DNA from: Kutzneria buriramensis
GTDB lineage: Bacteria > Actinomycetota > Actinomycetes > Mycobacteriales > Pseudonocardiaceae
Assembly (NCBI RefSeq): GCF_003387475.1
Contig: NZ_QUNO01000001.1
Span: 620,001 to 684,000 of the forward strand
DNA: 64,000 bases
Direction of reading: 5' to 3'
Part shown: piece by piece, positions 2,361 to 22,824 of the stretch
Layout: each line of letters opens with the position of its first letter
Numbering within the stretch: position 1 is the first letter of the stretch
The notes under the pieces: generated by a model
Seen by the model: only the letters and a program-made list of their open reading frames with translations
The model's database searches: none
What the model was told of the DNA's origin: nothing
Position numbers and translations under genes: made by a program

Positions 2361-2389
2361 CCGCCCCCATCAGGCTGGTGCTGAGTCAT

Positions 2390-2545: not shown

Positions 2546-2546
2546 C

Positions 2547-6539: not shown

Positions 6540-6704
6540 GGACGTCTCCTCGAGAAGCCGATGCCGAAGATGGGGACCGTGCACTCGTACCGGGCTCGAC
6601 CCGGTACCGGCCAGTTCTGGCGCAGAGTTCACCGCTTCGAGGCCCCCGTGACTAGACACCTTCACCCGAAGGAATGAACCTCGTTGCAGAGGTTTTCATT
6701 CCGG

Positions 6705-7764: not shown

Positions 7765-8073
7765 CTACTGGTCGCTTCCGCTGTTGAGCTGTCGCCGCGC
7801 GTCCTGGAGCCCGCGCAGGGCCGTGCCGCCCGCGCCGACCGCCACGATGATGGCGATGATCTCGAGGAACACGTTGCCGGTGGCCATCAGCAGCGCCAGC
7901 AGCGCCGCCACGGTGACGATGCCGGCCTGGGGCCAGCGGGCGCGCACCCACTGGGCGATCGGCGCGCCGCCCGCCCTGCGGCTGGCGGCCGACCCGAGCA
8001 CGAACAGGTATCCGTCGTAGCCGGCCGCGGCCACCAGGCTGGCCAGGGCGATGATGACGGCGATGAACTCCAT
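7765..8073 (-). CDS. small two-to-three-pass membrane protein
   Basis: A 102-residue hydrophobic protein starting MEFIAVIIALASLVAAAGYD, with membrane segments at about 2-26, 51-69 and 69-86. The reading frame is open further upstream, but that extension runs through a palindromic repeat and lacks a plausible start, so the ATG at 8073 is used. Function unknown. It sits between the kinase-associated set and the chorismate mutase gene. Confidence 0.7.
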   Translation of the reverse strand: MEFIAVIIALASLVAAAGYDGYLFVLGSAASRRAGGAPIAQWVRARWPQAGIVTVAALLALLMATGNVFLEIIAIIVAVGAGGTALRGLQDARRQLNSGSDQ

Positions 8074-8141
8074 GGCACCAGTGTGCGCGGTTCGGCGCCC
8101 GCGGGCATCGGTGACATCCCGGAGAACCCCCTGGCTCGTGC

Positions 8142-8292
8142 GCCGCGAGGCCCCGCCGGTGCCTGGAGCGGTTGCTGGATTTCGATCGTCCGCCACCCGA
8201 CGTGCACGCCGCACGAGCCGACGCGGGCGATCGAAATCCAGCAAGCGAAGGCACCGGGTCCGAGGGGCCTCGCCGCGCGCGGAACGCGCGCC
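8142..8292 (+). repeat. gene-end palindromic repeat, copy 3
   Basis: Nested palindrome ten bases after the chorismate mutase stop. Inner arms CTGGATTTCGATCG / CGATCGAAATCCAG and outer arms GGTGCC / GGCACC, with the family block GCGCGCGGAACGCGCGCC at the right end and GCGAGGCCCCGCCG at the left end. The outer arms differ from copies 2 and 4 on both sides in a compensatory way, which points to selection for, or inheritance of, the paired structure. Confidence 0.8.
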
Positions 8293-8301
8293 ATGTGACC
8301 G

Positions 8302-8589
8302 TCACCTCCCCAGTGGGCCCCGCCCCATGCGCAGCAGGATCAGCGCGATGTCCTTGCCCTCGGGGCCGAGCTCCCGGTAGCGGGCCAGGATGTCGATCTC
8401 CCGGTTGTGCACGATCTTCGTGCCGCCGTTGGCCATCCGGACCTTTCCGACGATGCCCGACACCTCGGCCCGTCGCCTGACCAACCTGATGATCTCCGCG
8501 TCCAGCTGGTCGATCTCCTGGCGCAGCGCCGGGATGTCCGGGGCGTCGGTGGTGTCCGGGGTCGGCTGCTCGCTGACTGGCGTGCTCAC
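8302..8589 (-). CDS. aroQ: chorismate mutase (AroQ class)
   Basis: A 95-residue all-helical AroQ-fold mutase converting chorismate to prephenate, the branch point to phenylalanine and tyrosine, in the cytoplasm. The core LRQEIDQLDAEIIRLVRRRA, then VRMANGG and VHNREIDILARYRELG, matches the intracellular actinobacterial enzyme (M. tuberculosis Rv0948c), which is similarly short and needs DAHP synthase for full activity. GTG start preceded by GGAGG. As in M. tuberculosis it is divergent from pcrA/uvrD1. A leader peptide rich in Phe and Tyr and a hairpin lie upstream and suggest attenuation control. Confidence 0.93.
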   Translation of the reverse strand: MSTPVSEQPTPDTTDAPDIPALRQEIDQLDAEIIRLVRRRAEVSGIVGKVRMANGGTKIVHNREIDILARYRELGPEGKDIALILLRMGRGPLGR

Positions 8590-8638
8590 GTTCGTTCCTC
8601 CGTGCTCGTTCTCGGAGTTCGGCGGCCCCGGCAGCGCG

Positions 8639-8670
8639 AAAGCCCCGGGTCCGAGGACTCCGGGGCTTCC
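8639..8670 (-). terminator. putative attenuator hairpin upstream of chorismate mutase
   Basis: Inverted repeat AAGCCCCGG / CCGGGGCTT with a short loop, between the leader peptide and the chorismate mutase start. There is no U-run, as is common in high-GC actinobacteria. It is read with the leader peptide and the GGGAACCGG / CCGGTTCCC hairpin as an attenuator. Confidence 0.6.
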
Positions 8671-8688
8671 GCGATGGTCGTGTCGGCG

Positions 8689-8751
8689 CTACGCGACCAC
8701 GGGAACCGGGGTCCGGTTCCCGTAGAAAAACTCGTAGTGACGCGTACGCAC
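8689..8751 (-). CDS. leader peptide of aromatic attenuator (20 aa)
   Basis: A 20-codon reading frame starting GTG and ending TAG that contains the run His-Tyr-Glu-Phe-Phe-Tyr. Its second half overlaps a perfect 9-bp hairpin (GGGAACCGG / CCGGTTCCC, 8701-8721). A second hairpin (8639-8670) follows before the chorismate mutase start at 8589. This is the layout of a transcription attenuator in which ribosomes stall at Phe/Tyr codons when charged tRNA is scarce. It is too short for routine gene calling. Attenuators for aromatic genes have been predicted in actinobacteria; this instance is inferred from sequence. Confidence 0.65.
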   Translation of the reverse strand: MRTRHYEFFYGNRTPVPVVA

Positions 8752-8833
8752 AGCGGGAGTCTTACACAGCGGGCGGCGCCGCGTCGACCCGGCGTGACGG
8801 AAGTGTCGGGGTGGCCGGGTAGCGTTGTGGGCG

Positions 8834-11155
8834 ATGAGCGCTCTGTTCGATCTGCCCACGAATCCCCCGGCGCGGGCGACCGGTTCCGACGCGTTGCTGG
8901 AGGGCCTCAACCCGCAGCAGCGCGACGCGGTCGTGCACGCGGGCTCGCCCCTGCTGGTCGTCGCGGGCGCCGGCTCCGGCAAGACCAAGGTGCTGACCAG
9001 CCGTATCGCCTATCTGCTGGCGGCGCGCGGGGTGCACCCCGGCGAGATCATGGCGATCACCTTCACCAACAAGGCCGCGGCCGAGATGAAGGAGCGGGTC
9101 TCCGGCCTGGTCGGGCGGCGCGCCAACGCGATGTGGGTGTCGACCTTCCACTCCATGTGCGTGCGGCTGCTGCGCCGCGAGGCCAAGACCCTGGGCATGT
9201 CGTCCAACTTCACCATCTACGACAGCGACGACTCGCGCCGGCTGGTCACCCTGGTCGCGCGCGATCTGGACCTGGACCCGAAGCGCTACCCGGCGCGCAC
9301 GCTGGCCGTGCACATCTCCAACCTCAAGAACGAGCTGATCGACGCCGAGACGGCCAAGGACCGCGCGGCCAACGACCTGGAGCGCCGGGTCGCCGAGGTG
9401 TACGAGTCCTACCAGCAGAGGCTGAAGCTGGCCAACGCGCTCGACTTCGACGACCTGATCATGCGCTCGGTCGAGCTGTTGCAGGTGTTCCCGGACGTGG
9501 CCGAGCACTACCGGCGGCGGTTCCGGCACGTGCTCGTCGACGAGTACCAGGACACCAACCACGCCCAGTACACGCTGGTGCGGGAGCTGGTCGGCACCGG
9601 CGAGGGCGGCGTCGCGCCGGGCGAGCTGTGTGTGGTCGGCGACGCCGACCAGTCCATCTACGCCTTCCGCGGCGCGACGATTCGCAACATCGTCGAGTTC
9701 GAGCGGGACTACCCGCAGGCGCGCACCATTCTGTTGGAGCAGAACTACCGCTCCACGCAGACGATCCTGAGCGCCGCGAACGCCGTGATCGCCCGCAACC
9801 CCAACCGCCGGGACAAGCGGCTGTGGACCGACTCCGGCGAGGGCGAGAAGATCGTCGGCTACGTCGGCGACAACGAGCACGACGAGGCCGGCTTCGTGGC
9901 CGGCGAGATCGACCGGCTGGTCGACGCCGGCACGTACACCAACGGCGACATCGCCGTGTTCTACCGGACCAACAACCAGTCCCGGGTGTTCGAAGAGATC
10001 TTCATCCGGCTGGGGCTGCCCTACAAGGTGGTCGGCGGCGTCCGGTTCTACGAGCGGCGCGAGGTCCGGGACGCGCTGGCGTACCTGCGGGTGCTGGCCA
10101 ATCCCGACGACGCGGTGAGCCTGCGGCGGATTCTCAACGTGCCCAAGCGCGGCATCGGGGACCGGGCCGAGGCCTGCGTGTCCGCGCACGCCGAGCAGCA
10201 GCGGATCGGGTTCGCCACCGCCCTGCGGGAGGCCGCCGCCGGCAAGGTCGCGCTGCTCAATCCGCGCTCCCGCAACGCCATTTCCGGCTTCGTGGCGTTG
10301 TTGGACGAGTTGCACCAGGGAGTGGAGCGCGGTGACGACGTCGGCGACATCCTGGAGCAGATCCTCGATCTCACCGGCTATCGGGCCGAGCTGGAGGCCA
10401 GCGACGACCCCCAGGACGCGTCGCGGCTGGACAACCTGACCGAGCTCGTCACCGTGGCCCGGGAGTTCACCCAGTTCAATCTGCCCGAGCCGGACGAGGC
10501 CGACCCCGAGCCGGCCAGCAGCCTGGACGCCTTCCTGGAGCGGGTGTCGCTGGTCGCCGACTCCGACTCGGTGCCCGAGTCCGACGACGGCGTGGTCACC
10601 CTGATGACCTTGCACACCGCCAAGGGCCTCGAGTTCCCGGTCGTGTTCTCCACCGGCTGGGAGGACGGCGTGTTCCCGCATTCCCGGGCGCTGGGCGACC
10701 CCGCCGAGCTGGCCGAGGAGCGGCGGCTCGCGTACGTCGGCATCACCCGCGCGCGTGAGCGGCTGTATCTGTCGCGGGCCCTCATCCGGTCCGCCTGGGG
10801 ACAGCCCGCCGCCAACCCCGAGTCACGGTTCCTCGGCGAGATCCCGTCCGACCTGCTCGAGTGGCGGCGGGTCGAGCCCGAGCGGGCCGCGCCCACCGTC
10901 ACCACCACCTGGGGCCGGCGGTCCTCCTTCGGCGAGAGCCCGTCCCGCGGCACGCCGGCGTTCGCCAAGGGCTGGCAGAACACGCCGACCCTGGAGCTCG
11001 AGGTCGGCGACCGGGTCAACCACGACAAGTACGGCCTGGGCACCGTTGTCGCCACCGACGGCTCCGGTCCCCGCGCCACCGCCACCATCGACTTCGGCTC
11101 CGCCGGCACCGTCCGCCTCATGCTCATCGGCGGCGTCCCCCTGGTGAAACTCTGA
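8834..11155 (+). CDS. pcrA: UvrD/PcrA-type ATP-dependent DNA helicase
   Basis: A 773-residue superfamily 1A 3'-5' helicase, the same length class as M. tuberculosis UvrD1, acting in nucleotide excision repair and replication-fork maintenance. Visible motifs in order: Q-motif GLNPQQRDAV, Walker A AGAGSGKTKVLTSRIAYL, motif II VDEYQDTN, motif III GDADQSIYAFRGA, motif IV QNYRSTQ, motif V TLHTAKGLEF and motif VI AYVGITRARERL. The C terminus (DRVNHDKYGLGTVV) is the small Tudor-like domain that in UvrD1/PcrA contacts RNA polymerase. The ATG at 8834 is preferred to a TTG three codons upstream. The gene starts close to a divergent chorismate mutase unit, as in mycobacteria. Confidence 0.97.
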   Translation: MSALFDLPTNPPARATGSDALLEGLNPQQRDAVVHAGSPLLVVAGAGSGKTKVLTSRIAYLLAARGVHPGEIMAITFTNKAAAEMKERVSGLVGRRANAMWVSTFHSMCVRLLRREAKTLGMSSNFTIYDSDDSRRLVTLVARDLDLDPKRYPARTLAVHISNLKNELIDAETAKDRAANDLERRVAEVYESYQQRLKLANALDFDDLIMRSVELLQVFPDVAEHYRRRFRHVLVDEYQDTNHAQYTLVRELVGTGEGGVAPGELCVVGDADQSIYAFRGATIRNIVEFERDYPQARTILLEQNYRSTQTILSAANAVIARNPNRRDKRLWTDSGEGEKIVGYVGDNEHDEAGFVAGEIDRLVDAGTYTNGDIAVFYRTNNQSRVFEEIFIRLGLPYKVVGGVRFYERREVRDALAYLRVLANPDDAVSLRRILNVPKRGIGDRAEACVSAHAEQQRIGFATALREAAAGKVALLNPRSRNAISGFVALLDELHQGVERGDDVGDILEQILDLTGYRAELEASDDPQDASRLDNLTELVTVAREFTQFNLPEPDEADPEPASSLDAFLERVSLVADSDSVPESDDGVVTLMTLHTAKGLEFPVVFSTGWEDGVFPHSRALGDPAELAEERRLAYVGITRARERLYLSRALIRSAWGQPAANPESRFLGEIPSDLLEWRRVEPERAAPTVTTTWGRRSSFGESPSRGTPAFAKGWQNTPTLELEVGDRVNHDKYGLGTVVATDGSGPRATATIDFGSAGTVRLMLIGGVPLVKL

Positions 11156-11165
11156 CGCTACGCTC

Positions 11166-11276
11166 CAGTGATACGGAAACCCTTTTCTAGTATCACGTGG
11201 CCCCGGCGGTGCTACGTAGGTATCACTGGATCGAGCGATGTGATACCTAACCGGGCTTCAGTACCATAGTGATACT
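11166..11276 (+). promoter_or_regulatory. five GTGATAC/GTATCAC heptamers upstream of fic
   Basis: Heptamers at 11168-11174 (GTGATAC), 11190-11196 (GTATCAC), 11220-11226 (GTATCAC), 11240-11246 (GTGATAC) and 11269-11275 (GTGATAC). They form an outward and an inward facing pair plus a single copy just before the Fic start. They probably bind a regulator; the C-terminal winged helix of the Fic protein itself is a candidate. Confidence 0.65.
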
Positions 11277-11295
11277 GAGTCGGGGGTGGGTATCG

Positions 11296-12441
11296 GTGCG
11301 TGTGGAGGCGTTCGCCGATCGTCAGCGGGACCATGTGGTCCGCAGCGACCGGGGCTATCCCGCGTTCGTGCCGCCGAAGCTGCCGCCCGAGGTCGACTTC
11401 GACGTCGCGATGGTCCGGCGGCTCTCCGCCGCGGACCGGGCGGTCGGACAACTCGCCGGCGTCGGGCGCACGTTGCCGAACCCCTACCTGCTCGCGCAGG
11501 CGATGGTGCGACGCGAGGCCGTCCTGTCCAGCCGGATCGAGGGCACGGTCGCCACGCTGTCCGACCTGGTGCGCTACGAGGTCGCGCCGGCCGCGGCGTC
11601 CGCCGGTGATGTCGCCGAGGTCTACAACTACGTGGCCGCCGTGGAGCACGTGCTGGCCCCGGACCGGCGGCTGCCGCTGAGCCTGCCGTTGCTGCGCGAG
11701 GCTCACGGGATCCTGCTGTCCGGAGTGCGCGGCGGTTACGCCACGCCCGGCGACTTCCGGCGCACCCAGAACTGGATCGGCCCGCCCGGCTGCGTGCTGG
11801 ACACGGCGACCTACGTTCCGCCGCCACCGGAACACATGTGGGAGTGCCTGGACGCGTTCGAGAAGCACCTGCACGCCGAGCACGAGCTGCCGCCGCTGAT
11901 CACGATCGCCTGCCTGCACTACCAGTTCGAGGCGATCCACCCGTTCATCGAAGGCAACGGCCGGGTCGGCCGGCTGCTGGTCGCGCTGCTGCTCGTCGAA
12001 TGGGGCCTGCTGCCGGCGCCGCTGCTCGATCTGTCCGCATACCTCGAGCCGCGCCGGGACGAGTACTACGAGCGGCTGCTGGCCGTGACCGTCGACGGCG
12101 ACTGGACCGGGTGGCTCTCTTTCTTCCTGGACGTCGTCGCGCACCAGGCCGCCGACGCGCTGCACCGTGCCCAGGCCCTCCAGAGCCTGCGGGAGGAGCT
12201 GCGCGGGCGCGTCACCAACGTCAGGTCCTCCAGCCTCGCCCCGCGCCTGGTCGACGCCCTGTTCGAGACGCCGGCCATGACCATCAACCGCGCCGCCGAG
12301 GTGCTCGGTGTGACTCATCGCGGCGCGATGCTCAACGTGCAGCGCCTGGTCGAGGCCAACGTGCTCACCGAGGTCGCCAGCACCGCCCGCGCCCGCCTGT
12401 TCCTCGCCGACGATGTTCTCCGCCTGCTCGGCGAGGACTGA
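11296..12441 (+). CDS. Fic-domain protein (class II, Fic_N + wHTH)
   Basis: A 381-residue Fic protein, a family that transfers AMP or related nucleotides to hydroxyl groups on target proteins. The N-terminal Fic_N region holds the inhibitory motif SSRIEG ([S/T]xxxE[G/N]), making it class II and self-inhibited. The catalytic core is HPFIEGNGRVGRL, matching HxFx(D/E)GNGRxxR with no missing residue. The last ~80 residues look like a winged helix-turn-helix (TINRAAEVLGVTHRGAMLNV). The GTG at 11296 is used because GGGGGTGGG precedes it. Five heptamers crowd the promoter, suggesting autoregulation. It is a single gene with no separate antitoxin. Confidence 0.9.
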   Translation: MRVEAFADRQRDHVVRSDRGYPAFVPPKLPPEVDFDVAMVRRLSAADRAVGQLAGVGRTLPNPYLLAQAMVRREAVLSSRIEGTVATLSDLVRYEVAPAAASAGDVAEVYNYVAAVEHVLAPDRRLPLSLPLLREAHGILLSGVRGGYATPGDFRRTQNWIGPPGCVLDTATYVPPPPEHMWECLDAFEKHLHAEHELPPLITIACLHYQFEAIHPFIEGNGRVGRLLVALLLVEWGLLPAPLLDLSAYLEPRRDEYYERLLAVTVDGDWTGWLSFFLDVVAHQAADALHRAQALQSLREELRGRVTNVRSSSLAPRLVDALFETPAMTINRAAEVLGVTHRGAMLNVQRLVEANVLTEVASTARARLFLADDVLRLLGED

Positions 12442-12448
12442 TCGGCTG

Positions 12449-15067
12449 TCAGCGCAGGGCCTGGCGGGCGTAGGCGCGGACGTCGGCGTCGGGGTCGGCC
12501 AGGGCCTCGGTGAGGACGGTGACGGACTCGGCGGAAGCGGGGAGTTGGCCGAGGGCGCGGACGGCGGCGCGGCGGACGTTGGGGTGAGGGTCGGCGACGG
12601 CGGCGAGCAGTTGGCCGGTGTCGGCGAGCGAGGTTGCGGCCTCGCGGACCTGCCAGGCGTCATCGGCCAGGGCTTCGGCGGCGTGGGGCAGCAACGTATC
12701 GGCGCCCGATGCGAGGGCGGCGGCGCGGACCAAGGGGTCGGGGTCGGTGGCCAGTGGTACGAGGGCCGCCTTCGCCGCGTCGGAGGCGATGGAACCCAGA
12801 CCTTGTGCCACGGCGATGCGGACCTCACGGGAGGAGTCGGCGGCAGCAGAGGCAAGGGGTTCGGCGGCCGAGAGGGACTCCAGGCCGTGCACGGCCTCGA
12901 TGCGCACCTCGGGAACGGCATCGGGGAGGGCGTCGGTGAAGGCGGCGAGGGAGCCGAGGCGCAGGGAACGCAGCAGGTAGAGGGCGGCGCAGCGGACGGC
13001 GGGCTCGGCGTTCTGGACGGCCCGGCGCAGGCGCGCGGCCAATGGATCTGGACTGGGAACGACCTCCACCAGCTCCCGCAGACCGGCTGCGGCGGCCAGG
13101 CGGACGGCGGGCTCCGGATCGTCGAAGGCCTCGGCGAGGGCGAGGGCGAAGCCGTCGGGGGTGGTCTCGGTCAGCGTCGTGACGGCGGTGAGGCGGACGG
13201 ACTCGGCGGGGCTGGCGAGGTAGGGGCGGAGGTCGTCCAAGGACGGGGAAGCCTCGGCGAGGGCCACCAGGGCGACGAGGTCGGCGGAGCCACCGACCGG
13301 GCGGGAGACGCTGACCTGCGCCGTCACGGTGGCGACGGAAGCGGGCAGGTGCCGGGCGATGACGGTGGGGGGACCGCCGACGGGAACGGGGAATTCGGGC
13401 ACGGGCACCAGGTACGGCGCGACGGGGCGGCGGATGAACTCCATGGCGCCGTCGGGGGCCTTGCGCAGGTTGAGGTGGGCGAACCACTCCGAGTCGTCAC
13501 GGCCTGGGTGGTCCATACGGTCGTGGTAGAGGCCCCAACGGCTCTCGGTGCGGACCAGGGAGGACCGGGCGGCCATCTCGGCGCAGTCACGGATGAAGGT
13601 GACCTCGGCGCATCGCATGAGCTCATGGGGAGTCCGAGCGCCCATGCCGGCGATCTCGGCCCGCATCCGGGAGAAGTGCTCGACGGCGATCTCGAGGCGG
13701 TTGGCGCTCTTGGGCGGCGCCACGTAGTCGTTGACGAGACGGCGGAGCTTGTACTCGACCTGGGGCTGCGGCGGACCGTCCGGATTGGACAGTGGGCGGT
13801 AGATGAGCTCGTGGGCGTCGGAGATCTGGTCCTCCGGCAAGGCGAGACGGTCCCACGAGAGCCCGGCGGCGTGGGAGCCGGCCAGGTCGCCGAAGACGAA
13901 GGCGCCGATCATGTAGTTGTGCGGCACGCAGGCCAGGTCGCCGGCGGCGTAGAGACCCGCAACGGTGGTCCGGCCGTGCTCGTCGACCCAGACGCCGGAG
14001 GCGGAATGGCCGCCGCACAAACCGATCTCGGAGATGTGCATCTCGACGTCATGCGTGCGGTAGTCGTGCCCGCGGCCGGCATGGAAGGTGCCGCGGGTGG
14101 GCCGCTCGGTGGTGTGCAGGATGCCTTCGAGTGCCCGCACGGACTCCTCGGGCAGGTGGGAAAGCTTCAGGTAGATGGGACCCCGTGCCGAATGGATCTC
14201 CCGCGCGACCTCGGCCATCATCTGCCCGGACCAGTAGTCGCAGTCGACGAACCGATCGCCGGCGGCGTTGGCCTGGTAGCCGCCGAACGGGTTGGCCACA
14301 TAGGCACAGGCGGGGCCGTTGTAGTCCTTGATCAACGGGTTGATCTGGAAGCACTCGATGCCGGACAGCTCGGCCCCGGCGTGGTAGGCCATGGAGTAGC
14401 CGTCGCCGGCGTTGGTCGGATTCTCATACGTGCCATAGAGATACCCGCTGGCTGGCAGGCCCAGCCGTCCACAGGGGCCGGTGGCCAGCACGACCGCGCG
14501 AGCCGACACGGTGACGAAGTCGCCGCTGCGGGTGTCGAAGCCGACGGCCCCGACGGCGCGGCCGTCGACGGTGAGCACCCGCACGGGCATGACCCGGTTG
14601 GTGATCGTCACCAGCGACCGCATCCGCTTCTCGCGCAGCACCCGGTACAGCACCTTCTTGACGTCCTTGCCCTCCGGCATCGGCAGGACGTAGCTGCCGG
14701 ACCGGTGCACCCGTCGCACGGCGTACTCGCCGTAGGAGTCCTTCTCGAACTTGACGCCGTAACCCTCCAGCCGTCGCACCATGTCGTGGCCACGGGTGGC
14801 GGTCTGCATGACGGTGCGCTGGTCGACGATCCCGTCGTTGGCCCTGGTGATCTCGGCGACGTAGTCCTCGGGGGTGGCCTTGCCGGGGATGACGGCGTTG
14901 TTCACGCCGTCCATGCCCATGGCCAGCGCCCCGGAATGCCGCACGTGCGCCTTCTCCATCAGCAGCACCGACGCCCCGCGCTCGGCGGCGGAGATCGCGG
15001 CCATGGTGCCGGCGGTGCCACCGCCGATCACCAGCACGTCACAGCTCAGGTCACGGCGTTCGGTCAC
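12449..15067 (-). CDS. AprA/FrdA-like flavoprotein with C-terminal HEAT repeats
   Basis: An 872-residue protein. The first ~560 residues are a flavoprotein of the fumarate reductase/adenylylsulfate reductase alpha family: the Rossmann start DVLVIGGGTAGTMAAISAAE, then RHSGALAMGMDGVNN, which resembles AprA (R-S-G-A-x-A-x-G) more than FrdA (S-H-T), and late FAD motif LYAAGDLACVP. The C-terminal ~250 residues are about eight HEAT/PBS-type repeats (for example AVRLAAAAGLRELVE), probably a docking scaffold. It is coupled by a GTGA overlap to the ABC ATPase gene and shares the operon with a 2x[4Fe-4S] ferredoxin like AprB. A role in oxidising or reducing the imported substrate, perhaps a sulfur compound, is inference. 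The HEAT fusion is unusual for AprA or FrdA. Confidence 0.82.
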   Translation of the reverse strand: MTERRDLSCDVLVIGGGTAGTMAAISAAERGASVLLMEKAHVRHSGALAMGMDGVNNAVIPGKATPEDYVAEITRANDGIVDQRTVMQTATRGHDMVRRLEGYGVKFEKDSYGEYAVRRVHRSGSYVLPMPEGKDVKKVLYRVLREKRMRSLVTITNRVMPVRVLTVDGRAVGAVGFDTRSGDFVTVSARAVVLATGPCGRLGLPASGYLYGTYENPTNAGDGYSMAYHAGAELSGIECFQINPLIKDYNGPACAYVANPFGGYQANAAGDRFVDCDYWSGQMMAEVAREIHSARGPIYLKLSHLPEESVRALEGILHTTERPTRGTFHAGRGHDYRTHDVEMHISEIGLCGGHSASGVWVDEHGRTTVAGLYAAGDLACVPHNYMIGAFVFGDLAGSHAAGLSWDRLALPEDQISDAHELIYRPLSNPDGPPQPQVEYKLRRLVNDYVAPPKSANRLEIAVEHFSRMRAEIAGMGARTPHELMRCAEVTFIRDCAEMAARSSLVRTESRWGLYHDRMDHPGRDDSEWFAHLNLRKAPDGAMEFIRRPVAPYLVPVPEFPVPVGGPPTVIARHLPASVATVTAQVSVSRPVGGSADLVALVALAEASPSLDDLRPYLASPAESVRLTAVTTLTETTPDGFALALAEAFDDPEPAVRLAAAAGLRELVEVVPSPDPLAARLRRAVQNAEPAVRCAALYLLRSLRLGSLAAFTDALPDAVPEVRIEAVHGLESLSAAEPLASAAADSSREVRIAVAQGLGSIASDAAKAALVPLATDPDPLVRAAALASGADTLLPHAAEALADDAWQVREAATSLADTGQLLAAVADPHPNVRRAAVRALGQLPASAESVTVLTEALADPDADVRAYARQALR

Positions 15068-15783
15068 TGCGTGCTCCCCAAAGCGGCCAGGATCTCGGCG
15101 CGGGCGGCGGAGTTGTCGCCGTCGCCGCGCGGGAACGGGACGTCCACGATGGACCTGATGCCGGTCGGCTTTCCGCCCAGCACGGCGACCCGGTCGCCGA
15201 GGAAGACGGCCTCGTCGACGTCGTGGGTGACGAACACGATGGTCGTCGGCTGCTGCGACCAGACGTCGACCAGCAGCAACTGCATTGCCCGCCGGGTCTG
15301 GGCGTCCAGAGCGCCGAACGGCTCGTCGGCGAGGATCACCCGCGGCCCGCTGGCCAACGTCCGAGCCAGTTGGACCCGTTGGCGCATGCCGCCGGACAGC
15401 TCGCGCGGCAGATGATCGGCGTAGCCGCCGAGCCCGACGCGCTCGATCCACGACAGCGCCTGGGAGCGGCGGGAGCTCTTTGACACGCCGCGGATCGCCA
15501 GCGGCAGCTCGACATTGCGCCGCACGCTGCGCCACGGCAGCAGCCCGTCCTCCTGGAACACCAGCGCCCGCTCGGCGGACGTCCGCGCGATCGGCTGGCC
15601 GTCCAACGAGATCGTGCCGCCGGACGGCCGGTGCAGGCCGGCCAGCGTCCGCAGCACGGTCGACTTGCCGCAGCCGGAGCCGCCGACCAGCACCAGGATC
15701 TCGCCGGCCTCGATCTTCAGGTCGATCCCGCGCAGCACCGGCGTCTCCCGGTAGCCGACGGACAGGTCCTCGATCAGCATCAT
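15064..15783 (-). CDS. ABC transporter ATPase, SsuB/TauB/NrtD type
   Basis: A 239-residue ATPase of the nitrate/sulfonate/taurine importer family. Walker A GGSGCGKST, Q-loop FQEDGLLPW, signature LSGGMRQRVQLARTL, Walker B VILADEPFGALD and switch histidine VTHDVDEAV are all present. The ATG at 15783 overlaps the permease stop by ATGA, and the GTGA at its own end couples it to the flavoprotein gene. It powers the permease encoded upstream. Gene order substrate-binding protein, permease, ATPase matches SsuABC-type importers. Confidence 0.93.
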   Translation of the reverse strand: MMLIEDLSVGYRETPVLRGIDLKIEAGEILVLVGGSGCGKSTVLRTLAGLHRPSGGTISLDGQPIARTSAERALVFQEDGLLPWRSVRRNVELPLAIRGVSKSSRRSQALSWIERVGLGGYADHLPRELSGGMRQRVQLARTLASGPRVILADEPFGALDAQTRRAMQLLLVDVWSQQPTTIVFVTHDVDEAVFLGDRVAVLGGKPTGIRSIVDVPFPRGDGDNSAARAEILAALGSTQ

Positions 15784-16553
15784 CGCGCGACCTCCGCTTC
15801 GCGAGGCAGCCAGCGGGTGACCCGCCGGCCGACCAGTTCCACCGCGGCCGCGCTGCCGAAGCCGAGCAGCCCGATGGTGAGCATGCCGACGATCACGCCG
15901 GGGTAGTCGACAACCGTGTACGCCTGCCAGGTGCGGTAGCCGACGCCGTACTGGCCGGAGATCATCTCCGCGGAGATCACGCAGATCCACGCCACGCCCA
16001 TGCCGACCGACAGCCCGGAGAACACGCCCGGCAGCGCGCCGGGCAGCACGACGCTCCACAGCACCCGCCGCCCGCTGCCGCCCATGGTGCGCACGGCCTC
16101 CTCCCACACCACCGGCAGAGCCGTGACGGCGTGCCGGGTCGACACCAGGATCGGGAAGAACGCGGCCAGGAACGTGATGAACACGATTCCCTGTTCGTTG
16201 CTGGGAAACAGCAGGATGGCGATCGGCACCATGGCGATCGCCGGGATGGGCCGCAGCACCTCCAGCGGCGGCGACACCAGGTCGCCGGTCAGCGCGGACC
16301 GCCCGACGGCCACGCCGATCGCCACGCCGGCGAACGCCGCCAGCGCGAAGCCGATCAGGATGCGGGCCAGGCTGTCGGCGAGATCGCGGTAGTACAGCGA
16401 GGTCTGCAGCTGGTAGCCGAAGTCGCGGGCCACGTCCACGACCGTCGGCAGCCGGTCGAAGTGCAGCCAGAAGTTGACGTGCAGGCTCGTCAGCAGTTGC
16501 CATAACAGCAGGGCGGCGAGCAGAGATCCGCCCCGCAGCAGGTGTTTTCTCAT
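15780..16553 (-). CDS. ABC transporter permease, SsuC/TauC type
   Basis: A 257-residue inner-membrane permease with about six membrane segments and the EAA loop EEAVRTMGGSGRRVLWSVVL followed by P-G-A-L-P, which docks the ATPase. Segment PPLEVLRPIPAIAMVPIAIL is typical of the SsuC/TauC/NrtB group. ATGA overlap at both ends with its operon neighbours. The specific substrate (sulfonate, taurine, nitrate or other) cannot be told from sequence. Confidence 0.92.
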   Translation of the reverse strand: MRKHLLRGGSLLAALLLWQLLTSLHVNFWLHFDRLPTVVDVARDFGYQLQTSLYYRDLADSLARILIGFALAAFAGVAIGVAVGRSALTGDLVSPPLEVLRPIPAIAMVPIAILLFPSNEQGIVFITFLAAFFPILVSTRHAVTALPVVWEEAVRTMGGSGRRVLWSVVLPGALPGVFSGLSVGMGVAWICVISAEMISGQYGVGYRTWQAYTVVDYPGVIVGMLTIGLLGFGSAAAVELVGRRVTRWLPREAEVAR

Positions 16554-17863
16554 GCCAGCCTCAAAGCGGTGGGATAGTCGACGACGCGGGAACCGGGATG
16601 TGCGGTGGCGTAGGCCCGCGCCTCGGACTCGGTGTCGAAGGGGTGCAGGCCGTTGCCCGAGACCCAGTACGACTTGTCGGCGAACCACCGGGTCCCGGTG
16701 TCGGTGTCGTCGACGTAGGCGGCGCGAACCTGCTTGCCGCTGTCCCGGATGAGCCGCAGCAACGCGTCCGGCGACGAAGCGGCCACAGTGGAGGAGGCCC
16801 CGGCGAACCACACCTCGCCGGCGTTCGAAGGCCGATGTACGGCCGGCACCGACAACCGTGACAGCGGTCCTGGGTCGACGAAGGAGGAAAGATCCAGACC
16901 CTTGACGCCGCCGATGGACCGCAGGAACGGAATGTCCTTCTGCAGGGCGGAGATCAGATCCGGCCGCAGCGTCGGGTCGAAGGTGACGAGACCGTCGGGC
17001 CCGTTGTAGAGGTAGACCACCTCCGGCGCCAGTCCGGTCGCCGCCGCCACCTTCTGTGCCGCCTCCATGGGGTGCGCGTTCAGGAAGGCCGTGGCGTCCA
17101 GCTGCGCCTGGAGAAACGCCTGCACCGCATCGGGATTCGCGGCGGCGTACTTCTGTCGTACGACAACTCCGTGCCAGGTGGGCAGGTTCAGGGCCGCGCC
17201 GTCGTACAGCAGCCTGGCCCGGCCGGCGAACACCAGCTGCCCGGGCCAGGCCACGAACTGCCCCAGCGCGTCCACCGCCCCGGCCCGCAGCGCCGAGGCC
17301 CCGACGGCCGGGTCCTGGTTGATGATCTGCACGTCGCTGTCGGGATCGATGCCGGCGGCCGAAAGCGCACGAACGGTCGTGCCGTGACCGGCCGATCCGA
17401 TGCTGGCCGAGATCCGCTTCCCGCGCAGGTCGGCCAGCGTGCCGGCGGAGGACCCCGCCGGCACCACCACCATGTTCAGCGCCCCGCGCAGGTTGTAGCC
17501 GGTGGCCGAGATCAGCGACGTCCGCCCGTCGCCGAACTCCTGCGTGCGGGAGGCGTTGATCAGCAGCGGGAAGTCGCCCATCGAGCCGATGTCGATCTTC
17601 CCGGCGACCATCTGCGCGGTGATCGGCGCGCCGGTGGAGTAGTCCTGCCACTCGACCCGGTACGTCCTGCCGGTGCGCTGGCCCAGCGCCGAGAGCCGCT
17701 GCTCCAGGTACCCCTGCGCCCGCAGCAGCGTGCCGGCGGTGACGGTGTTGATCGTCTTGGACTGGTAGCCGACCACCAGGGTGACGACGTTCGACGTCGC
17801 GCCGGAGGCCACCGAGCAGGCCGTCAGGAACGCCAGCAGCAGTGCCGGCCAGGCCCGTCTCAT
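16550..17863 (-). CDS. SsuA-like binding lipoprotein with C-terminal NosL-like domain
   Basis: A 437-residue lipoprotein. The signal peptide ends in the lipobox LTAC. The middle is a type II periplasmic-binding fold of the SsuA/NrtA group (VGYQSKTINTV at the start, IDIGSMGDFPLL, DLRGKRISASIGSAGHGTTV, AVDALGQFVAWPGQLV). About the last 90 residues do not belong to that fold: VRAAYVDDTDTGTRW, YWVSGNGLHPFDTESEARAY and TAHPGSRVVDY follow the pattern of NosL, the accessory lipoprotein of nitrous-oxide reductase clusters, although the Pro-Met-Gly segment is missing. SsuA-NosL fusion is odd and could link substrate capture to a metal or redox function. ATGA overlaps on both sides. Confidence 0.85.
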   Translation of the reverse strand: MRRAWPALLLAFLTACSVASGATSNVVTLVVGYQSKTINTVTAGTLLRAQGYLEQRLSALGQRTGRTYRVEWQDYSTGAPITAQMVAGKIDIGSMGDFPLLINASRTQEFGDGRTSLISATGYNLRGALNMVVVPAGSSAGTLADLRGKRISASIGSAGHGTTVRALSAAGIDPDSDVQIINQDPAVGASALRAGAVDALGQFVAWPGQLVFAGRARLLYDGAALNLPTWHGVVVRQKYAAANPDAVQAFLQAQLDATAFLNAHPMEAAQKVAAATGLAPEVVYLYNGPDGLVTFDPTLRPDLISALQKDIPFLRSIGGVKGLDLSSFVDPGPLSRLSVPAVHRPSNAGEVWFAGASSTVAASSPDALLRLIRDSGKQVRAAYVDDTDTGTRWFADKSYWVSGNGLHPFDTESEARAYATAHPGSRVVDYPTALRLA

Positions 17864-18087
17864 CGGATCAGGAACGGCATGTTGACGGTGACCGCGCCGG
17901 TCGGGCAGCGCGCGGCGCACGGGCCGCAGTACCAGCACTCGTCCACGTGCATGTAGGCCACGTCGGTCTCCGGGTTGATGGCCAGCGAGTCCAGCGGGCA
18001 CACGTCCACGCAGAGTCGGCAACCTTTCACGCACAGTGACTCATCGATCACGACCGGGACATCCGCCCGGTTGGGCGCCAAAGCCAT
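17860..18087 (-). CDS. 2x[4Fe-4S] ferredoxin (AprB-like)
   Basis: A 75-residue ferredoxin with two clusters: CVKGCRLCVDVCP (C-x3-C-x2-C-x3-CP) and CWYCGPCAARCP (C-x2-C-x2-C-x3-CP). The one-residue-longer first motif and position beside an AprA-like flavoprotein suggest it passes electrons to or from that enzyme, in the cytoplasm. The ATG at 18087 has GAGGGG upstream. It begins 14 bp after the GntR stop and overlaps the binding-protein gene by ATGA. Confidence 0.92.
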   Translation of the reverse strand: MALAPNRADVPVVIDESLCVKGCRLCVDVCPLDSLAINPETDVAYMHVDECWYCGPCAARCPTGAVTVNMPFLIR

Positions 18088-18101
18088 CGCCAACAGCCCC
18101 T

Positions 18102-18821
18102 CTATCGGTCCAGTACGGCGCGCATGGTGAGCCGGTCCCCACGGAACCGGATGAACTCCAGGTCGACGGGCCGGCCGTCGGCCAGGTGGGTCAGCCGCTC
18201 CACCAGCAGCAGCGCCCCGCCGCGCGGCAGGTCGAGCACGGCGGCCACGTGCGGATCGGCGTTGACGGCCTCCATGCCGACCTCGGCCCGCCCCAGTGGC
18301 TGCCCGCAGATGCGCTCCAGCAGCGTGAAGACGTCGTTGTTGACGAGGTCCTCGGCCAGCAGCGGCTCGCCGACGTCGGCCGGCAGGTACGTCAGGTCCA
18401 GCGACAGCGGCAGGTCGTTCAGCCGCCGCAGCCGCTCGATGCACACGATGTCGGCGCCGACCGGGAGCCCGAGCCGCTCGGCCAGCACGCCGGTGGCCGC
18501 GACCACCCCCGAGGTCCGCACCTCGTTGGTCACCACGCCGTGCTCGTGCAGCGTCTCGGCCAGCCCCATCAACCGGTTCAGCCCGTGCGGGTACTTCCGC
18601 GCCACGACCACCGTGCCGACGCCCGGCGACCGCTCGATCAAGCCGTCCGCGCGCAGCAGCTCCAGCGCCTCACGCACGGCGTTGCGGGTCGCCCCGAACT
18701 CCCGGCCGAGAAGTCGCTCGTCCGGCAGCACGCCGTTCGTGAAGTCGCCGTCGAGCACCTGCCGGCGCAGGGCGTCGGCGATCTGCCTGGCCCGGTCGGC
18801 CCGTCGCGGTTGCGGATTCAC
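18102..18821 (-). CDS. GntR/HutC-family transcriptional regulator
   Basis: A 239-residue regulator with an N-terminal GntR winged helix (about 10-75, RLLGREFGATRNAVREALE as recognition region) and a C-terminal UTRA ligand-binding domain (about 95-235). It is the first gene of the six-gene redox/transport operon and very probably its local regulator. The ligand is unknown but should be the transported substrate or a product. Confidence 0.9.
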   Translation of the reverse strand: MNPQPRRADRARQIADALRRQVLDGDFTNGVLPDERLLGREFGATRNAVREALELLRADGLIERSPGVGTVVVARKYPHGLNRLMGLAETLHEHGVVTNEVRTSGVVAATGVLAERLGLPVGADIVCIERLRRLNDLPLSLDLTYLPADVGEPLLAEDLVNNDVFTLLERICGQPLGRAEVGMEAVNADPHVAAVLDLPRGGALLLVERLTHLADGRPVDLEFIRFRGDRLTMRAVLDR

Positions 18822-19143
18822 GGTGCCGAAGGTCGGGACGAGCCATTTCCGGTGGATGACAGCGATGTTTCCCCGGTGTTACGCCACCTGGTCAGGGGCC
18901 CTGGCCCAGGTGGAACGCGCGTTTCGCCACCGGCGGCCGAACGGGCCCGGTTCAGATTCTGGGATTTCCCGTCGGGGTCCGACGTAATGTCGGGTCCGGT
19001 CGTTACACGGTGAAACCGCAGCTGGCAAGGGGGCAACGGGCAGCACTTCACGGCATGGAGTCACCGTGAAGAGTTCGAGAAGTGGAGCCGGACACACTCG
19101 GCTACAGGAGGGATCACGGGGGTTATCCCAAGGAGGAGCAACG
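18822..19143. other. 322-bp divergent intergenic region
   Basis: Gene-free space between the GntR operon (leftwards) and the first LuxR regulator (rightwards), so it must hold both promoters. An inverted repeat CCGAC-gtaat-GTCGG lies at 18979-18993 inside two near-identical TCGGGGTCCG / TCGGGTCCGG copies and may be an operator. A strong ribosome site AAGGAGGAG lies at 19130-19138 before the LuxR GTG. No coding frame is convincing. Confidence 0.5.
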
Positions 19144-19767
19144 GTGGAGCGAGTTCGGGTAGGGGTCCACGCGGGCGACCCGATCACCCTGGCGGGAGTG
19201 GCCAGTCACCTGCGCGCACGTCCGGAGTTCCAGCTGGTGGGGGAGCGCCAGTTCGGGGAGGCGGCCGTGCTCGTGGTGTGCGCCGACGTGGTGACCTCGG
19301 AGGTCATGTCGGCGTTGCGCAGGTTCACCGAGAACTCCTCGGCGCGCTGCGTGCTGGTGACCAACGAGCTGCGCCAGGCCGACCTGCTCGCCGCTGTGGA
19401 GTGCCGGGTGGTGAGCGTGCTGCCCAGGGCGGACGCGACCGGCGACCGCCTGGCCGGCGCGGTGGTCGCCGCGGCGAGGGGCCGCGGCGACCTCCCTCCG
19501 GATCTGCTGGGGGAGCTGCTGTCCCAGGTGGAGCGCTTGCAGCGGGACGTGCTCGGCCCGCGCGGCCTGACCACCTCGGGGCTGGCCCCGCGCGAGGTGG
19601 ACGTGCTGCGGCTGATGGCGGAGGGCTGGGACACCGCGGAGATCGCGGAGAAGCTGTCCTATTCGGAGCGCACCGTGAAGAATGTCGTGTATGCGGTGAT
19701 GAGCCGGCTGGGGCTGCGCAACCGTCCGCACGCGGTCGCCTACGCCCTGCGAGCTGGCGTTATCTAG
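19144..19767 (+). CDS. LuxR-family regulator with atypical receiver-like domain (paralogue A)
   Basis: A 207-residue protein. The N-terminal ~115 residues start VRVGVHAGDPITLAGVASHL, like a NarL/FixJ receiver, but the phospho-acceptor strand reads VLVVCAD and the usual surrounding acidic residues are not evident, so phosphorylation is doubtful. The C-terminal LuxR helix-turn-helix is canonical (LAPREVDVLRLMAEGWDTAE, SERTVKNVVYAVMSRL). The GTG at 19144 is used because AAGGAGGAG lies just upstream. A paralogue of the same length lies at 33694-34317; each sits close to an AfsR-type regulator. Targets are unknown. Confidence 0.88.
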   Translation: MERVRVGVHAGDPITLAGVASHLRARPEFQLVGERQFGEAAVLVVCADVVTSEVMSALRRFTENSSARCVLVTNELRQADLLAAVECRVVSVLPRADATGDRLAGAVVAAARGRGDLPPDLLGELLSQVERLQRDVLGPRGLTTSGLAPREVDVLRLMAEGWDTAEIAEKLSYSERTVKNVVYAVMSRLGLRNRPHAVAYALRAGVI

Positions 19768-19839
19768 GTACCGGCTTGGGCCGATCGGTGGGGACCTGAT
19801 CACGATGTTTGGCCCTCGGCCGGTCAGACGGCCACAATC

Positions 19840-22824
19840 GTGCCCGTGCCGAGTACCTCGACCACGAGCGAGCCCCTGCGGTTCACGCTGCTCGGACCGG
19901 TTCGGGTGTGGCGTGGTGAGCGCGAACTGACGCTGGGTCCGCCGCAGCGCAAGGCCGTTCTCGCGACCCTGCTGCTGCGGGCGGACCAGGTGGTCACAGC
20001 GTCCGAGCTGGTCGATGCGGTCTGGGGTGACTCCGCGCCGGCGAGCGTGCATGGGGTCGTGCAGACGCACGTGTCGATGCTCAGGAGTGTGCTCGAGCCC
20101 GAGCGGCCGCGCCGCGGGCAGGCGAGCGTGCTGATGTCGGTCGGCAACGGCTACTCGCTGGCCGTCGGATCCGCGACGGTCGACCTCCGCGAGTTCGAGA
20201 AGACGCTGGAGCGGGCGCGGCAGCTGCGTGAAGAGGGCAACGCCCGCGACTCCGTCGATTGGTACGCCCGGGCGCTGGCGATGTGGCAGGGCGAGCCGCT
20301 GTCCGCCATCCCGGGTCCGGGGGCCGTGATCGAGCGGGCCCGGCTGAACGAGATCGTGCTCGGCGTCCAGGAGGAGCGCCTGGAGCTGATGGTCGCGCTC
20401 GGCCGGCACACCGCCGCCGTCACCGAGCTGTCGGCGCTGACCGGCGCCCATCCCGTCCGCGAACGGCTGCGGGCGTTGCACATGAAGGCGCTTTCCAGAT
20501 CGGGTCGCCGGGCCGACGCGCTGGCCGTCTACACGGACACGCGGCGCGTGATGGTGGACGAGCTGGGCATCGAACCCGGCTCCGAACTTCGTGATCTGCA
20601 CCGTCGCCTGCTGGCGGTCGACGAGCCGCCGGTTCAGCAGCAGCCGGCCGCCCCGCCGCCGGTCCAGCCGAGCCGCCGACCGGTCGTGCCCTTCATGGAC
20701 GAACCGTTGCCGGCCCTCATAGCGCCCGCACAGCTGCCGGCCGACGTCGCCGACTTCACGGGGCGCACCGCGCTCGTGAAGAAGCTCACGGCGATGCTGA
20801 CGCCCCGCACGCACCGGACCGCCCCGCCGCGCGCGTTGGTCGCCGGCATCGGCGGCGTGGGCAAGACGGCGCTGGCCGTGCACGCGGCGCACCAGGTGCG
20901 TCAGGACTACCCCGACGGCCAGCTCTACGTGGACCTTCGCGGTGCCGGCCCGGACGCCGCCGACCCGCTCAACGTGTTGAGTGCCTTCCTGCGGGCGTTC
21001 GGCGTGTCCCCCAACTCCACGCCGGCCGACCTCGACGAGCGGGCCGCGATGTACCGCTCGGTGCTGGCCACCCGCCGCGTCCTGGTGGTGCTGGACGACG
21101 CCGCCGACGCGGCCCAGATCCAGCACCTGCTGCCGGGTTCGGCGACCTGTGGCGTGCTGGTCACCAGCCGTCGCCGGCTGCCCGAGATGCAGTGGGACGA
21201 GCAGGCCGAGCTGGAGGGCATGTCCCGGGACGAGGCCCTGACCCTGTTCAGCCGCACCATCGGCGCGGAGCGGGCCGGCAAGGAGCCGGACGCCGTCGCC
21301 GAGGTGGTGGACGCCTGCGGGCGGCTGCCGCTGGCGCTGCGCATCACCGCCGCCAAGCTGGTCGACCGGCCGCAGTGGACGGTCCGCTCGATGGCCGACA
21401 AGCTCGCACGGGAAAGGGGCAGGCTGTCGGAGTTACGGGTGGGGAGCCTCGAAGTCGAGGCCACGTTTCACCTGGGCTACGGACAGCTCGACGCCACCTC
21501 CGCCCGCGCCTTCCGGCTGATGTCGCTGGCCGACGGCCCCGGCCTGTCGCTGCCGGCCGCCGCGGCCGTGGTCGGTGAGCCCGAGCGCGAGGCGGAGCCG
21601 GTGGCGGAGCGGTTGGTGGACCTGAACATGGTCGCCAGCCCCGCGCCGGATCACTACGCGTACCACGACCTGCTGCGGCTGTTCGCCCGCCAGCGGGCCG
21701 CGCAGACCGACAGCAAGCAGGACCGGATCGACGCGATGGTCCGCCTCGGCGACCACTACCTGGGCACGGCGGCGACGGCCGGCTGGCTGATCCAGGCGCC
21801 GGCCCAGCCGCGCGAGAAGTTCTCCGTGAAGCCGGGCGGGGTGAAGCTGCCCGACCTGAAGTCGGCGTTCGCCTGGTTCGAGGACGAGCAGCCGGCGCTG
21901 CTGGCGTCCGCGCGGCAGTTCCTCACCGACCCGGACCTGCCCTCGGAGTACGTGGTCGACCTGATCACGTTCCTGGAGCTGTATCTGGCCAACGGCACGC
22001 ACTTCGGCGAGATCGGGCAGATCGGCGAGCTGGCCGTGCGGGACGCTGAGCGGACCGGCGACCTGCGCGTCGAGGCGTGGGGACGGCGCAAGGTCGGCGA
22101 GGCCCACCTGCGGCGGTTCCAGCTGCCCGAGGCCGAGAACCAGCTGACCCGGTCCATCGCCGCCGCCGAGAAGGCCGGCGACCCCGGGGCCCTGGCCACC
22201 GCCATGGACCTGCTGGGCAGCGCCGAGTTCCGGATGGGACGGGTCGAGCAGTCGCTGGCCCACCTCGAGCGGGCCCTGGCCATCGCGCACGACGCCGGCG
22301 ACCTGGTGCGCGAGGCGTACGTGCTCGGCACGATCGGGCGCACCCAGTCCGAGCGCGGCGAGTTCGAGCTGGCCATGGGCGCCTGCGAGCAGAGCCGCGG
22401 CCTGCACGAGCAGCTCGGCAACGAGACCGGGCTGGCCCGCACCCTGTTCATGATGGGCCTGGTCTACCAGCGCTTCCGCCGGCTGGTGGAGTCGATCGAC
22501 CCGCTCGAGGAGTCGCTGGCCGTCTGCCTGGGCATCGAGCAGACCTTCGGCGAGGGACACAACCTGGTGATGCTGTCCAGGGGCTATCTGGCTGACGGCC
22601 GGGCCGAGCAGGCCGCGGCCGCCGCGTCCCGGGCCAAGGAGCTCGGCGAGGCCATCGGCGACGCCCACATGCACGCGATGGCCGTCGCCGAACTGGGGAA
22701 GGCCCTGCACGCGCTGGGCAAGCACGAGGCCGGCGACGAGCATCTGCACAGCGCCCAGGCGCTGCTGACCCAGCTGAACTCGCCGCAGGCGGCGGCCGTC
22801 ACTGCCCTCCTGAACCGAAAGTGA
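19840..22824 (+). CDS. AfsR/SARP-type STAND regulator (copy 1)
   Basis: A 994-residue multidomain regulator. Residues about 8-105 are an OmpR-type winged helix (LRFTLLGPVRVWRGERELTL) and about 110-255 the bacterial transcriptional activation domain, together the SARP module. NB-ARC follows: P-loop GIGGVGKTALAVH (near 335) and Walker B RRVLVVLDDA (near 410). About residues 720-985 are TPR repeats. AfsR proteins integrate signals for antibiotic production and development in streptomycetes. GTG start at 19840 or six bases later; no Shine-Dalgarno sequence is seen, so it may be leaderless. It lies 72 bp after the LuxR gene and overlaps the next gene by GTGA. Confidence 0.92.
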   Translation: MPVPSTSTTSEPLRFTLLGPVRVWRGERELTLGPPQRKAVLATLLLRADQVVTASELVDAVWGDSAPASVHGVVQTHVSMLRSVLEPERPRRGQASVLMSVGNGYSLAVGSATVDLREFEKTLERARQLREEGNARDSVDWYARALAMWQGEPLSAIPGPGAVIERARLNEIVLGVQEERLELMVALGRHTAAVTELSALTGAHPVRERLRALHMKALSRSGRRADALAVYTDTRRVMVDELGIEPGSELRDLHRRLLAVDEPPVQQQPAAPPPVQPSRRPVVPFMDEPLPALIAPAQLPADVADFTGRTALVKKLTAMLTPRTHRTAPPRALVAGIGGVGKTALAVHAAHQVRQDYPDGQLYVDLRGAGPDAADPLNVLSAFLRAFGVSPNSTPADLDERAAMYRSVLATRRVLVVLDDAADAAQIQHLLPGSATCGVLVTSRRRLPEMQWDEQAELEGMSRDEALTLFSRTIGAERAGKEPDAVAEVVDACGRLPLALRITAAKLVDRPQWTVRSMADKLARERGRLSELRVGSLEVEATFHLGYGQLDATSARAFRLMSLADGPGLSLPAAAAVVGEPEREAEPVAERLVDLNMVASPAPDHYAYHDLLRLFARQRAAQTDSKQDRIDAMVRLGDHYLGTAATAGWLIQAPAQPREKFSVKPGGVKLPDLKSAFAWFEDEQPALLASARQFLTDPDLPSEYVVDLITFLELYLANGTHFGEIGQIGELAVRDAERTGDLRVEAWGRRKVGEAHLRRFQLPEAENQLTRSIAAAEKAGDPGALATAMDLLGSAEFRMGRVEQSLAHLERALAIAHDAGDLVREAYVLGTIGRTQSERGEFELAMGACEQSRGLHEQLGNETGLARTLFMMGLVYQRFRRLVESIDPLEESLAVCLGIEQTFGEGHNLVMLSRGYLADGRAEQAAAAASRAKELGEAIGDAHMHAMAVAELGKALHALGKHEAGDEHLHSAQALLTQLNSPQAAAVTALLNRK

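Follow-up and report, generated by a model that had tools for sequence, protein, structure and literature searches.

A conserved operon joining a sulfonate-type importer to an AprA-like flavoprotein: a candidate system for import and reduction of sulfo-compounds

A stretch of 64,000 nucleotides from Kutzneria buriramensis (assembly GCF_003387475.1, contig NZ_QUNO01000001.1, positions 620,001 to 684,000; hereafter the window, with positions counted from its first letter) harbors six genes on its minus strand, from 18821 to 12449, encoding a GntR-type regulator (gntR), a 2x[4Fe-4S] ferredoxin, a substrate-binding lipoprotein (SBP), the permease and ATPase of an ATP-binding cassette (ABC) transporter and a flavoprotein named fumarate reductase/succinate dehydrogenase by NCBI. 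A sequence-only reading had proposed a six-gene operon that imports an organosulfur compound or related anion and converts it with a flavoprotein–ferredoxin pair resembling AprAB, the adenylylsulfate (APS) reductase. All six genes were recovered in their places, and the operon is a compact, self-contained gene set. The 4-base overlaps proposed for five genes were also found, four in number and linking ferredoxin, SBP, permease, ATPase and flavoprotein, with gntR lying outside this chain, 14 nt separating its end (18102) from the ferredoxin ATG (18087). The explanation judged best, with about an even chance of being right, is a sulfur-scavenging system that would import a small sulfonate or related sulfo-compound and release sulfite from it reductively.

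The flavoprotein (872 aa) comprises a flavin adenine dinucleotide (FAD)/Succ_DH_flav_C part of ~560 residues and a HEAT-repeat C-terminus, which had been overlooked in the sequence-only reading and matches HEAT_2 at 1.7e-25. The protein scored 1468.8 bits with NF010374 (PRK13800; cut-off 1196, residues 2-871) and 864.8 bits with NF006131 (PRK08275; cut-off 587), and by these scores the two models describe its family, while the fumarate reductase/succinate dehydrogenase name that they carry is unsupported at the level of residues. The AprA-like segment HSGALAMGMDG is present as claimed, with S45, G46, G51, M52, D53 and G54 invariant (13/13), and among solved structures the archaeal 3'-phosphoadenylylsulfate (PAPS) reductase alpha subunit (1.4e-56) and AprA (2.1e-28) rank above succinate dehydrogenase (Sdh; 7.4e-22). 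In a tree of 42 rows, built with a quick method, with long outgroup branches flagged, 3-ketosteroid dehydrogenases left out and Rhodococcus represented by L067, the 29 rows of the family form one clade (Shimodaira–Hasegawa-like approximate likelihood ratio test, SH-aLRT, 99), which is sister to six AprA-type and three PAPS reductase-type (PAPSR-type) sequences (SH-aLRT 99); four further host-genome flavoproteins, which we read as Sdh/NadB-type, are separated from both groups (SH-aLRT 100). The phylogenetic check proposed earlier against Frd and NadB thus placed the flavoprotein outside the Sdh/NadB-type group. PAPS reductase was the top Foldseek match of the predicted model, which was too poor round the pocket (mean predicted local distance difference test score, pLDDT, 69.2; below 50 at 39-53, 197-221 and 238-357 among others) and was used for ranking relatives only; for the HEAT part, the model shows helical repeats at high pLDDT. 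As a separate observation, an alpha subunit of the PAPSR type that passes the PRK06854 cut-off and retains both Arg265 and Trp234 is encoded in two of 296 Actinomycetota genomes (L137 and L138).

The active site was compared, in A. fulgidus AprA numbering, across 95 sequences (the 78 of the 80 fetched loci described below that yielded a flavoprotein ORF, 16 plasmid loci and the window, with L015 and L136 left out), of which the fetched loci are the nearest relatives and the diversity comes mainly from 15 non-actinobacterial sequences. Asn74, His398 and His446 of AprA are kept in 95/95 sequences, the first two corresponding to Asn56 and His354 of the window flavoprotein. Arg265 and Trp234 are replaced in 95/95 by Leu and Tyr (Leu245 and Tyr214 in the window), and Tyr95, Trp144, Phe261 and Gly274, likewise in 95/95, by Glu, Tyr, Gln and Cys, giving an invariant replacement set of Glu72, Tyr126, Tyr214, Gln241, Leu245 and Cys254 in window numbering; Trp234 and Arg265 are retained in the six AprA-type and three PAPSR-type sequences. 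According to the passages of PMC2211403 covered here, Asn-A74 and His-A398 of AprA contact sulfate oxygens directly, Arg-A265 and Trp-A234 reach the third sulfate oxygen via water, and Arg-A265, Val-A273, Gly-A274, Tyr-A95 and His-A446 line the phosphate/ribose side. By alignment, the family seems to retain the residues that touch the sulfonyl group directly, and on the nucleotide side, except for His446, most residues seem to have given way to a fixed set of its own; because most nucleotide-binding residues are replaced by invariant others, the substrate is probably neither APS nor PAPS.

The ferredoxin carries the motifs C19-x3-C23-x2-C26-x3-C30P and C51-W-Y-C54-x2-C57-x3-C61P, and its eight cysteines and Trp52, in a CWxC motif, are invariant in 18/18 ferredoxins. 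The electron-wire Trp of AprB and of the PAPS reductase beta subunit presumably lies in a motif of the same CWxC type; such a Trp is mentioned in PMC2211403 and PMC10322725. The AprB likeness proposed earlier holds for the eight cysteines, but the AprB-like tail is absent (75 aa against 150 and 166 aa for the solved AprB chains and 104 aa for the PAPS reductase beta subunit) and the AprB model TIGR02060 gave 27.6 bits, under its cut-off of 135.65. The nearest solved relatives by whole-protein score are polyferredoxins and not AprB, so the ferredoxin alone does not point to AprAB.

The binding lipoprotein consists of SsuA/TauA-like lobes (~24-340) and an extra C-terminal domain (~345-437) that is hardly covered by the structure-alignment rows. 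SsuA/TauA are its nearest relatives by sequence and rank first by fold, and other fold relatives bind bicarbonate, nitrate, pyrimidines and pyrroloquinoline quinone (PQQ). The SBP C-terminus of relatives matched NosL (PF05573), a family of copper chaperones that serve nitrous oxide reductase, at E<=1 in 12 of 16 proteins of relative set A3, with 1.3e-6 as the best value, and in 7 of the 30 proteins of set A4, and no such match at E<=1 was observed for the window's own binding protein.

A scan of genome contigs gave at least 597 pattern matches, with at least 588 relatives among them, and the best 80 of those listed, all actinobacterial, were fetched. The order GntR-ferredoxin-SBP-permease-ATPase-flavoprotein-HEAT is identical in 75 of these 80 loci, so that chance is excluded as its cause and the linkage of transporter and redox genes, on which the sequence-only reading depended, is seen in most of the loci fetched; three further loci (L030, L065 and L095) are interrupted by a contig end. 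Among the 75, L034 and L043 hold all parts with inserts of ~1.5 and ~5 kb, respectively; the former, between permease and ATPase (7765-9201, minus strand), resembles an IS605-type OrfB/TnpB when judged by eye, and the latter (Antrihabitans, ~1900-6880, frames read by eye) places a second SsuABC-like transporter and asparaginase-like and M20-type genes between ferredoxin and SBP. The presence of the operon across Actinomycetota is patchy, with the flavoprotein found at E<=1e-100 in 12/396 Actinomycetota genomes (the window's own included), above the NF006131 cut-off in 18 of 200 sampled genomes of the host family (the window's own counted in) and in 0/14 control genomes, and the nearest fetched relatives are from Pseudonocardiaceae. 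Among viral contigs, 51 pattern matches yielded 0 relatives.

Outside the actinobacteria, Proteobacteria and Cyanobacteria were sampled from plasmid records. Matches to the Cupriavidus flavoprotein at E<=1e-100 numbered 51 in these records, and 48 covered >=80% of its length; neighbours were counted in 17 annotated proteobacterial/cyanobacterial loci (L009-L019, L130-L134 and L136), excluding L135, L129 (without annotation) and the actinobacterial L008. In 15/17 loci, genes annotated as SBP, permease and ATPase form a set no more than 12 kb away, including L130, where it is split by an insertion sequence element and the SBP is short. HEAT is a separate gene in these loci, mostly adjoining the flavoprotein and ferredoxin genes, and the window HEAT part matches the separate HEAT genes with a best E of 1.2e-15, a score that repeats can inflate; because the two are fused in actinobacteria and separate neighbours elsewhere, the fusion suggests that flavoprotein and HEAT protein act together. 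Nearby genes in 13/17 loci include one of DUF971/GBBH-like type (in nine) or one for an iron-sulfur carrier of the Mrp/NBP35 group (in four), and the adjoining regulator is GntR/UTRA in six, Crp/Fnr in six and LysR in three (one also with Crp), L009 and L013 having no evident regulator beside the module. The LysR protein of one cyanobacterial cluster (L014, 9559-11574, minus strand) has ~670 aa, with no Pfam match at 1e-5 after ~residue 280, and similar-sized proteins occur in L015 and L136.

Sulfur-related neighbours were observed in 10/17 plasmid loci. TauE/SafE sulfite exporter or sulfate-exporter-family genes flank the module in four (L014, L015, L017 and L136), and other loci contain luciferase-like (LLM) or flavin mononucleotide (FMN) monooxygenases, sulfonate-binding proteins, rhodanese and mercaptopropionate dioxygenase. 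Sulfur names were carried by 18/197 non-module features against 0/243 in controls (Fisher 3e-7), and strict names (sulfite, sulfate, sulfonate, mercapto or sulfurtransferase, to which the looser set adds LLM or FMN monooxygenase, SsuA-type SBP, TSUP and YeiH) by 9/197 against 0/243 (Fisher 7e-4), values that are indicative only because near relatives are among the loci (two Pseudanabaena, two Mesorhizobium). The controls were six 50-kb stretches from six of the same plasmids; the names were picked after the loci had been viewed and counted by hand, with module genes removed by hand. Electron-supply genes stand beside the module in two loci, FdxA with a ferredoxin-NADP reductase in L131 and FdxA with a 1153-aa FAD oxidoreductase in L130, and these neighbours suggest that electrons flow toward the flavoprotein. 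The latter protein (A. caldus plasmid, 10574-14035), which follows the flavoprotein-ferredoxin-HEAT-FdxA genes and has a Pyr_redox_2 match only, is possibly the electron donor. Single actinobacterial loci do show such neighbours, as L078 does with a sulfatase upstream and TauD downstream.

The proposed course of the reaction starts with the lipoprotein and ABC transporter, which, from the SBP fold and the gene neighbours, would import a small sulfonate or other sulfo-anion. By homology, the dedicated 2x[4Fe-4S] ferredoxin would hand two electrons to the FAD, and the N5 of the reduced flavin would attack the sulfonyl sulfur held by Asn56 and His354, an N5 attack on sulfur being proposed for AprA and for the PAPS reductase of Methanothermococcus thermolithotrophicus (MtPAPSR) in the passages of PMC10322725 covered. 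Sulfite and the desulfo compound would then be released, as the exporter genes suggest, with the HEAT part serving as fused scaffold or partner and gntR sensing substrate or product. Judging from the AprA mechanism, a leaving group linked through O, N or S should be released more readily than one on a simple C-S bond, and sulfate esters, sulfamates and S-sulfo compounds are for this reason candidates beside sulfonates. We propose more tentatively, as something possible rather than probable, that the family stands for a widespread oxygen-independent reductive desulfonation by a flavin-N5/iron-sulfur reductase sister to AprA, with a HEAT partner and an often NosL-like SBP, unlike SsuD/TauD. The interpretation given in the sequence-only reading is partly supported.

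Several observations weigh against reductive sulfite release. Substrate and direction are deduced from sequence and context, the pocket was read from the alignment, the model having long stretches with pLDDT below 50, and His446, a residue of the AprA phosphate/ribose side, is kept in 95/95, so the nucleotide side is partly retained; no flavoenzyme of this superfamily is known to cleave a sulfonate C-S bond. All importer parts score under the curated Ssu/Tau cut-offs (SBP 133.6 against 163.5, ATPase 228.9 against 357 for TauB and permease 103-110.9 against 342-347 bits). Two of the 80 fetched loci (L078 and L098, contigs of metagenome-assembled genomes) are without a transporter between ferredoxin and flavoprotein, and among the plasmid loci L009 has binding-protein genes only, without permease or ATPase, and L018 no nearby transporter set. 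Electron-supply genes are confined to 2/17 plasmid loci, and 7/17 are without a sulfur-named neighbour. The window genes around the operon have no relation to sulfur, and in the 80 actinobacterial loci no sulfur gene was found as a conserved neighbour, nor any other cluster outside the operon in more than 10/80 once frames antisense to the operon genes are set aside, by a home-made gene caller of limited sensitivity (ATPase found in 29 loci, permease in 57).

A sulfur-free substrate on which the enzyme would act by hydride transfer, whether a carboxylate, some other anion or the precursor of a vitamin, is considered an unlikely but serious contender: the flavoprotein superfamily includes C=C reductases, and the ligands of the SBP-fold relatives and the low Ssu/Tau scores of the SBP would fit, whereas the clade adjoins AprA/PAPS reductase with both direct sulfate-oxygen contacts kept, sulfur-named genes are enriched nearby and SsuA/TauA come first by fold. 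Somewhat less probable still is the same architecture run in the opposite direction, in which the sulfur compound brought in, or sulfite derived from it, would be oxidised by the flavoprotein and electrons would leave through the ferredoxin. Most of the listed hosts are aerobes, which would suit oxidation, and AprA runs both ways, as stated in PMC2211403. Against this direction, the exporter genes suggest that sulfite leaves and is not consumed, the FdxA and ferredoxin-NADP reductase of L131 fit electron delivery, and the operon is without an electron-accepting membrane partner.

Two identities with known enzymes are far less credible. An AprAB acting as APS or PAPS reductase in new company, very improbable in our judgement, would agree with AprA and PAPS reductase being the closest solved relatives, but the Leu and Tyr replacements, the missed AprA cut-off (TIGR02061, 127.5 against 641.75 bits) and PRK06854 cut-off (NF005331, 271.8 against 557 bits), the position outside the AprA/PAPSR clade and the fact that a cytosolic nucleotide needs no importer speak against it, and both the AprA and the MtPAPSR-type identity were rejected. 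Fumarate reductase/succinate dehydrogenase, the least probable of all, has the database name and the common FAD and C-terminal domains in its favour, and was rejected by TIGR01812 (136.1 against 567.3 bits), by the separate clade and by the six genes including no membrane anchor or SdhB; the catalytic residues Arg286 and His242 of E. coli SdhA are replaced, with positions counted along the alignment, by Gln282 (Gln in 92/95) and Asn243 (95/95). NadB was likewise rejected on its separate clade, the tree setting the family apart from Sdh/NadB-type proteins.

Among characterised systems, MtPAPSR (PDB 8a8o; PMC10322725, passages covered) resembles the flavoprotein core most, with a full-length alignment (284 bits by profile), a small 2x[4Fe-4S] protein accompanying the FAD subunit, the same Asn and His at the sulfate position and the top Foldseek rank, and differs in its Arg237 and Trp206 where the window family has Leu and Tyr, in the absence of a HEAT part and in PAPS being its substrate, an importer not being mentioned in those passages. 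AprAB (PDB 1jnr/2fja; PMC2211403, in part) shares the fold family and Asn-A74, His-A398 and His-A446, whereas Arg-A265, Trp-A234, Tyr-A95, Gly-A274 and Leu-A278 are not kept, no Arg is present at 317, the clade is separate and the AprB C-terminal tail is absent from the window ferredoxin. Compared with SsuABC/TauABC, the window SBP has an extra C-terminal domain and the operon is without an SsuD/TauD oxygenase.

Part of this gene set has been noticed before, since the available sections of PMC12375680 list a 'ferredoxin/APS reductase/GntR' module with a sulfonate transporter as cargo on 'F. caldus' plasmids including pTcM1, and predict that plasmids of the pAca1.1 family carry two operons by which organosulfonates are taken up and assimilated, an account at annotation level that, in those sections, is without family definition, site analysis, HEAT partner or breadth. 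Searches of an open-access library yielded no functional study of the operon and no characterised NF010374 member, the sole text with the term PRK13800 concerning, in the part available, mycorrhizal fungi, and the operon is not mentioned in the passages covered of PMC8557817, PMC7661421, PMC8305402 and PMC10708946. If the reductive reading is true, it would add an oxygen-independent route to sulfur from organosulfur compounds beside the known oxygenases, define a third lineage in the AprA/PAPS reductase branch of flavoenzymes and correct the fumarate reductase/succinate dehydrogenase name in many genomes (at least 588 relatives; 18/200 host-family genomes). The compact and self-contained layout of the operon puts a screen of substrates with the lipoprotein within direct reach.

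The features of the operon are collected in Table 1. The best NCBIfam model for gntR is PhnF-type (107.5 bits, under the cut-off of 156.8), and a HutC-type operator upstream of gntR is unsupported, with a match in 1/76 regions against 4.6 expected from shuffles.

Table 1. Features of the operon in the window, with positions counted from its first nucleotide.
Feature	Positions	Strand	Basis
gntR, HutC/UTRA-type GntR regulator, 239 aa, GTG start	18102..18821	minus	Pfam UTRA 2.5e-35, GntR 2.3e-14
2x[4Fe-4S] ferredoxin, 75 aa, ATG at 18087	17860..18087	minus	Pfam, Cys spacing
Substrate-binding lipoprotein, 437 aa, NMT1/SsuA-type	16550..17863	minus	Pfam/NCBIfam
ABC permease, 257 aa	15780..16553	minus	BPD_transp_1 5.3e-20
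ABC ATPase, TauB/SsuB-like, 239 aa	15064..15783	minus	ABC_tran 1e-33
Flavoprotein core, residues 1-560 of 872, GTG start 15067	13388..15067	minus	FAD_binding_2 6.5e-35, Succ_DH_flav_C 9.2e-13
Linker and HEAT-repeat C-terminus of flavoprotein, residues 561-872	12449..13387	minus	HEAT_2 (PF13646) 1.7e-25
Intergenic stretch upstream of operon, presumed promoter/operator	18822..19065		position only

Nothing sulfur-related was seen in the genes on either side, which encode a Fic/DOC protein (11269-12441) and, divergently at 19066-22824, a LuxR-type regulator and a BTAD/NB-ARC (AfsR-like) regulator. The G+C content of the window is 71.6%.

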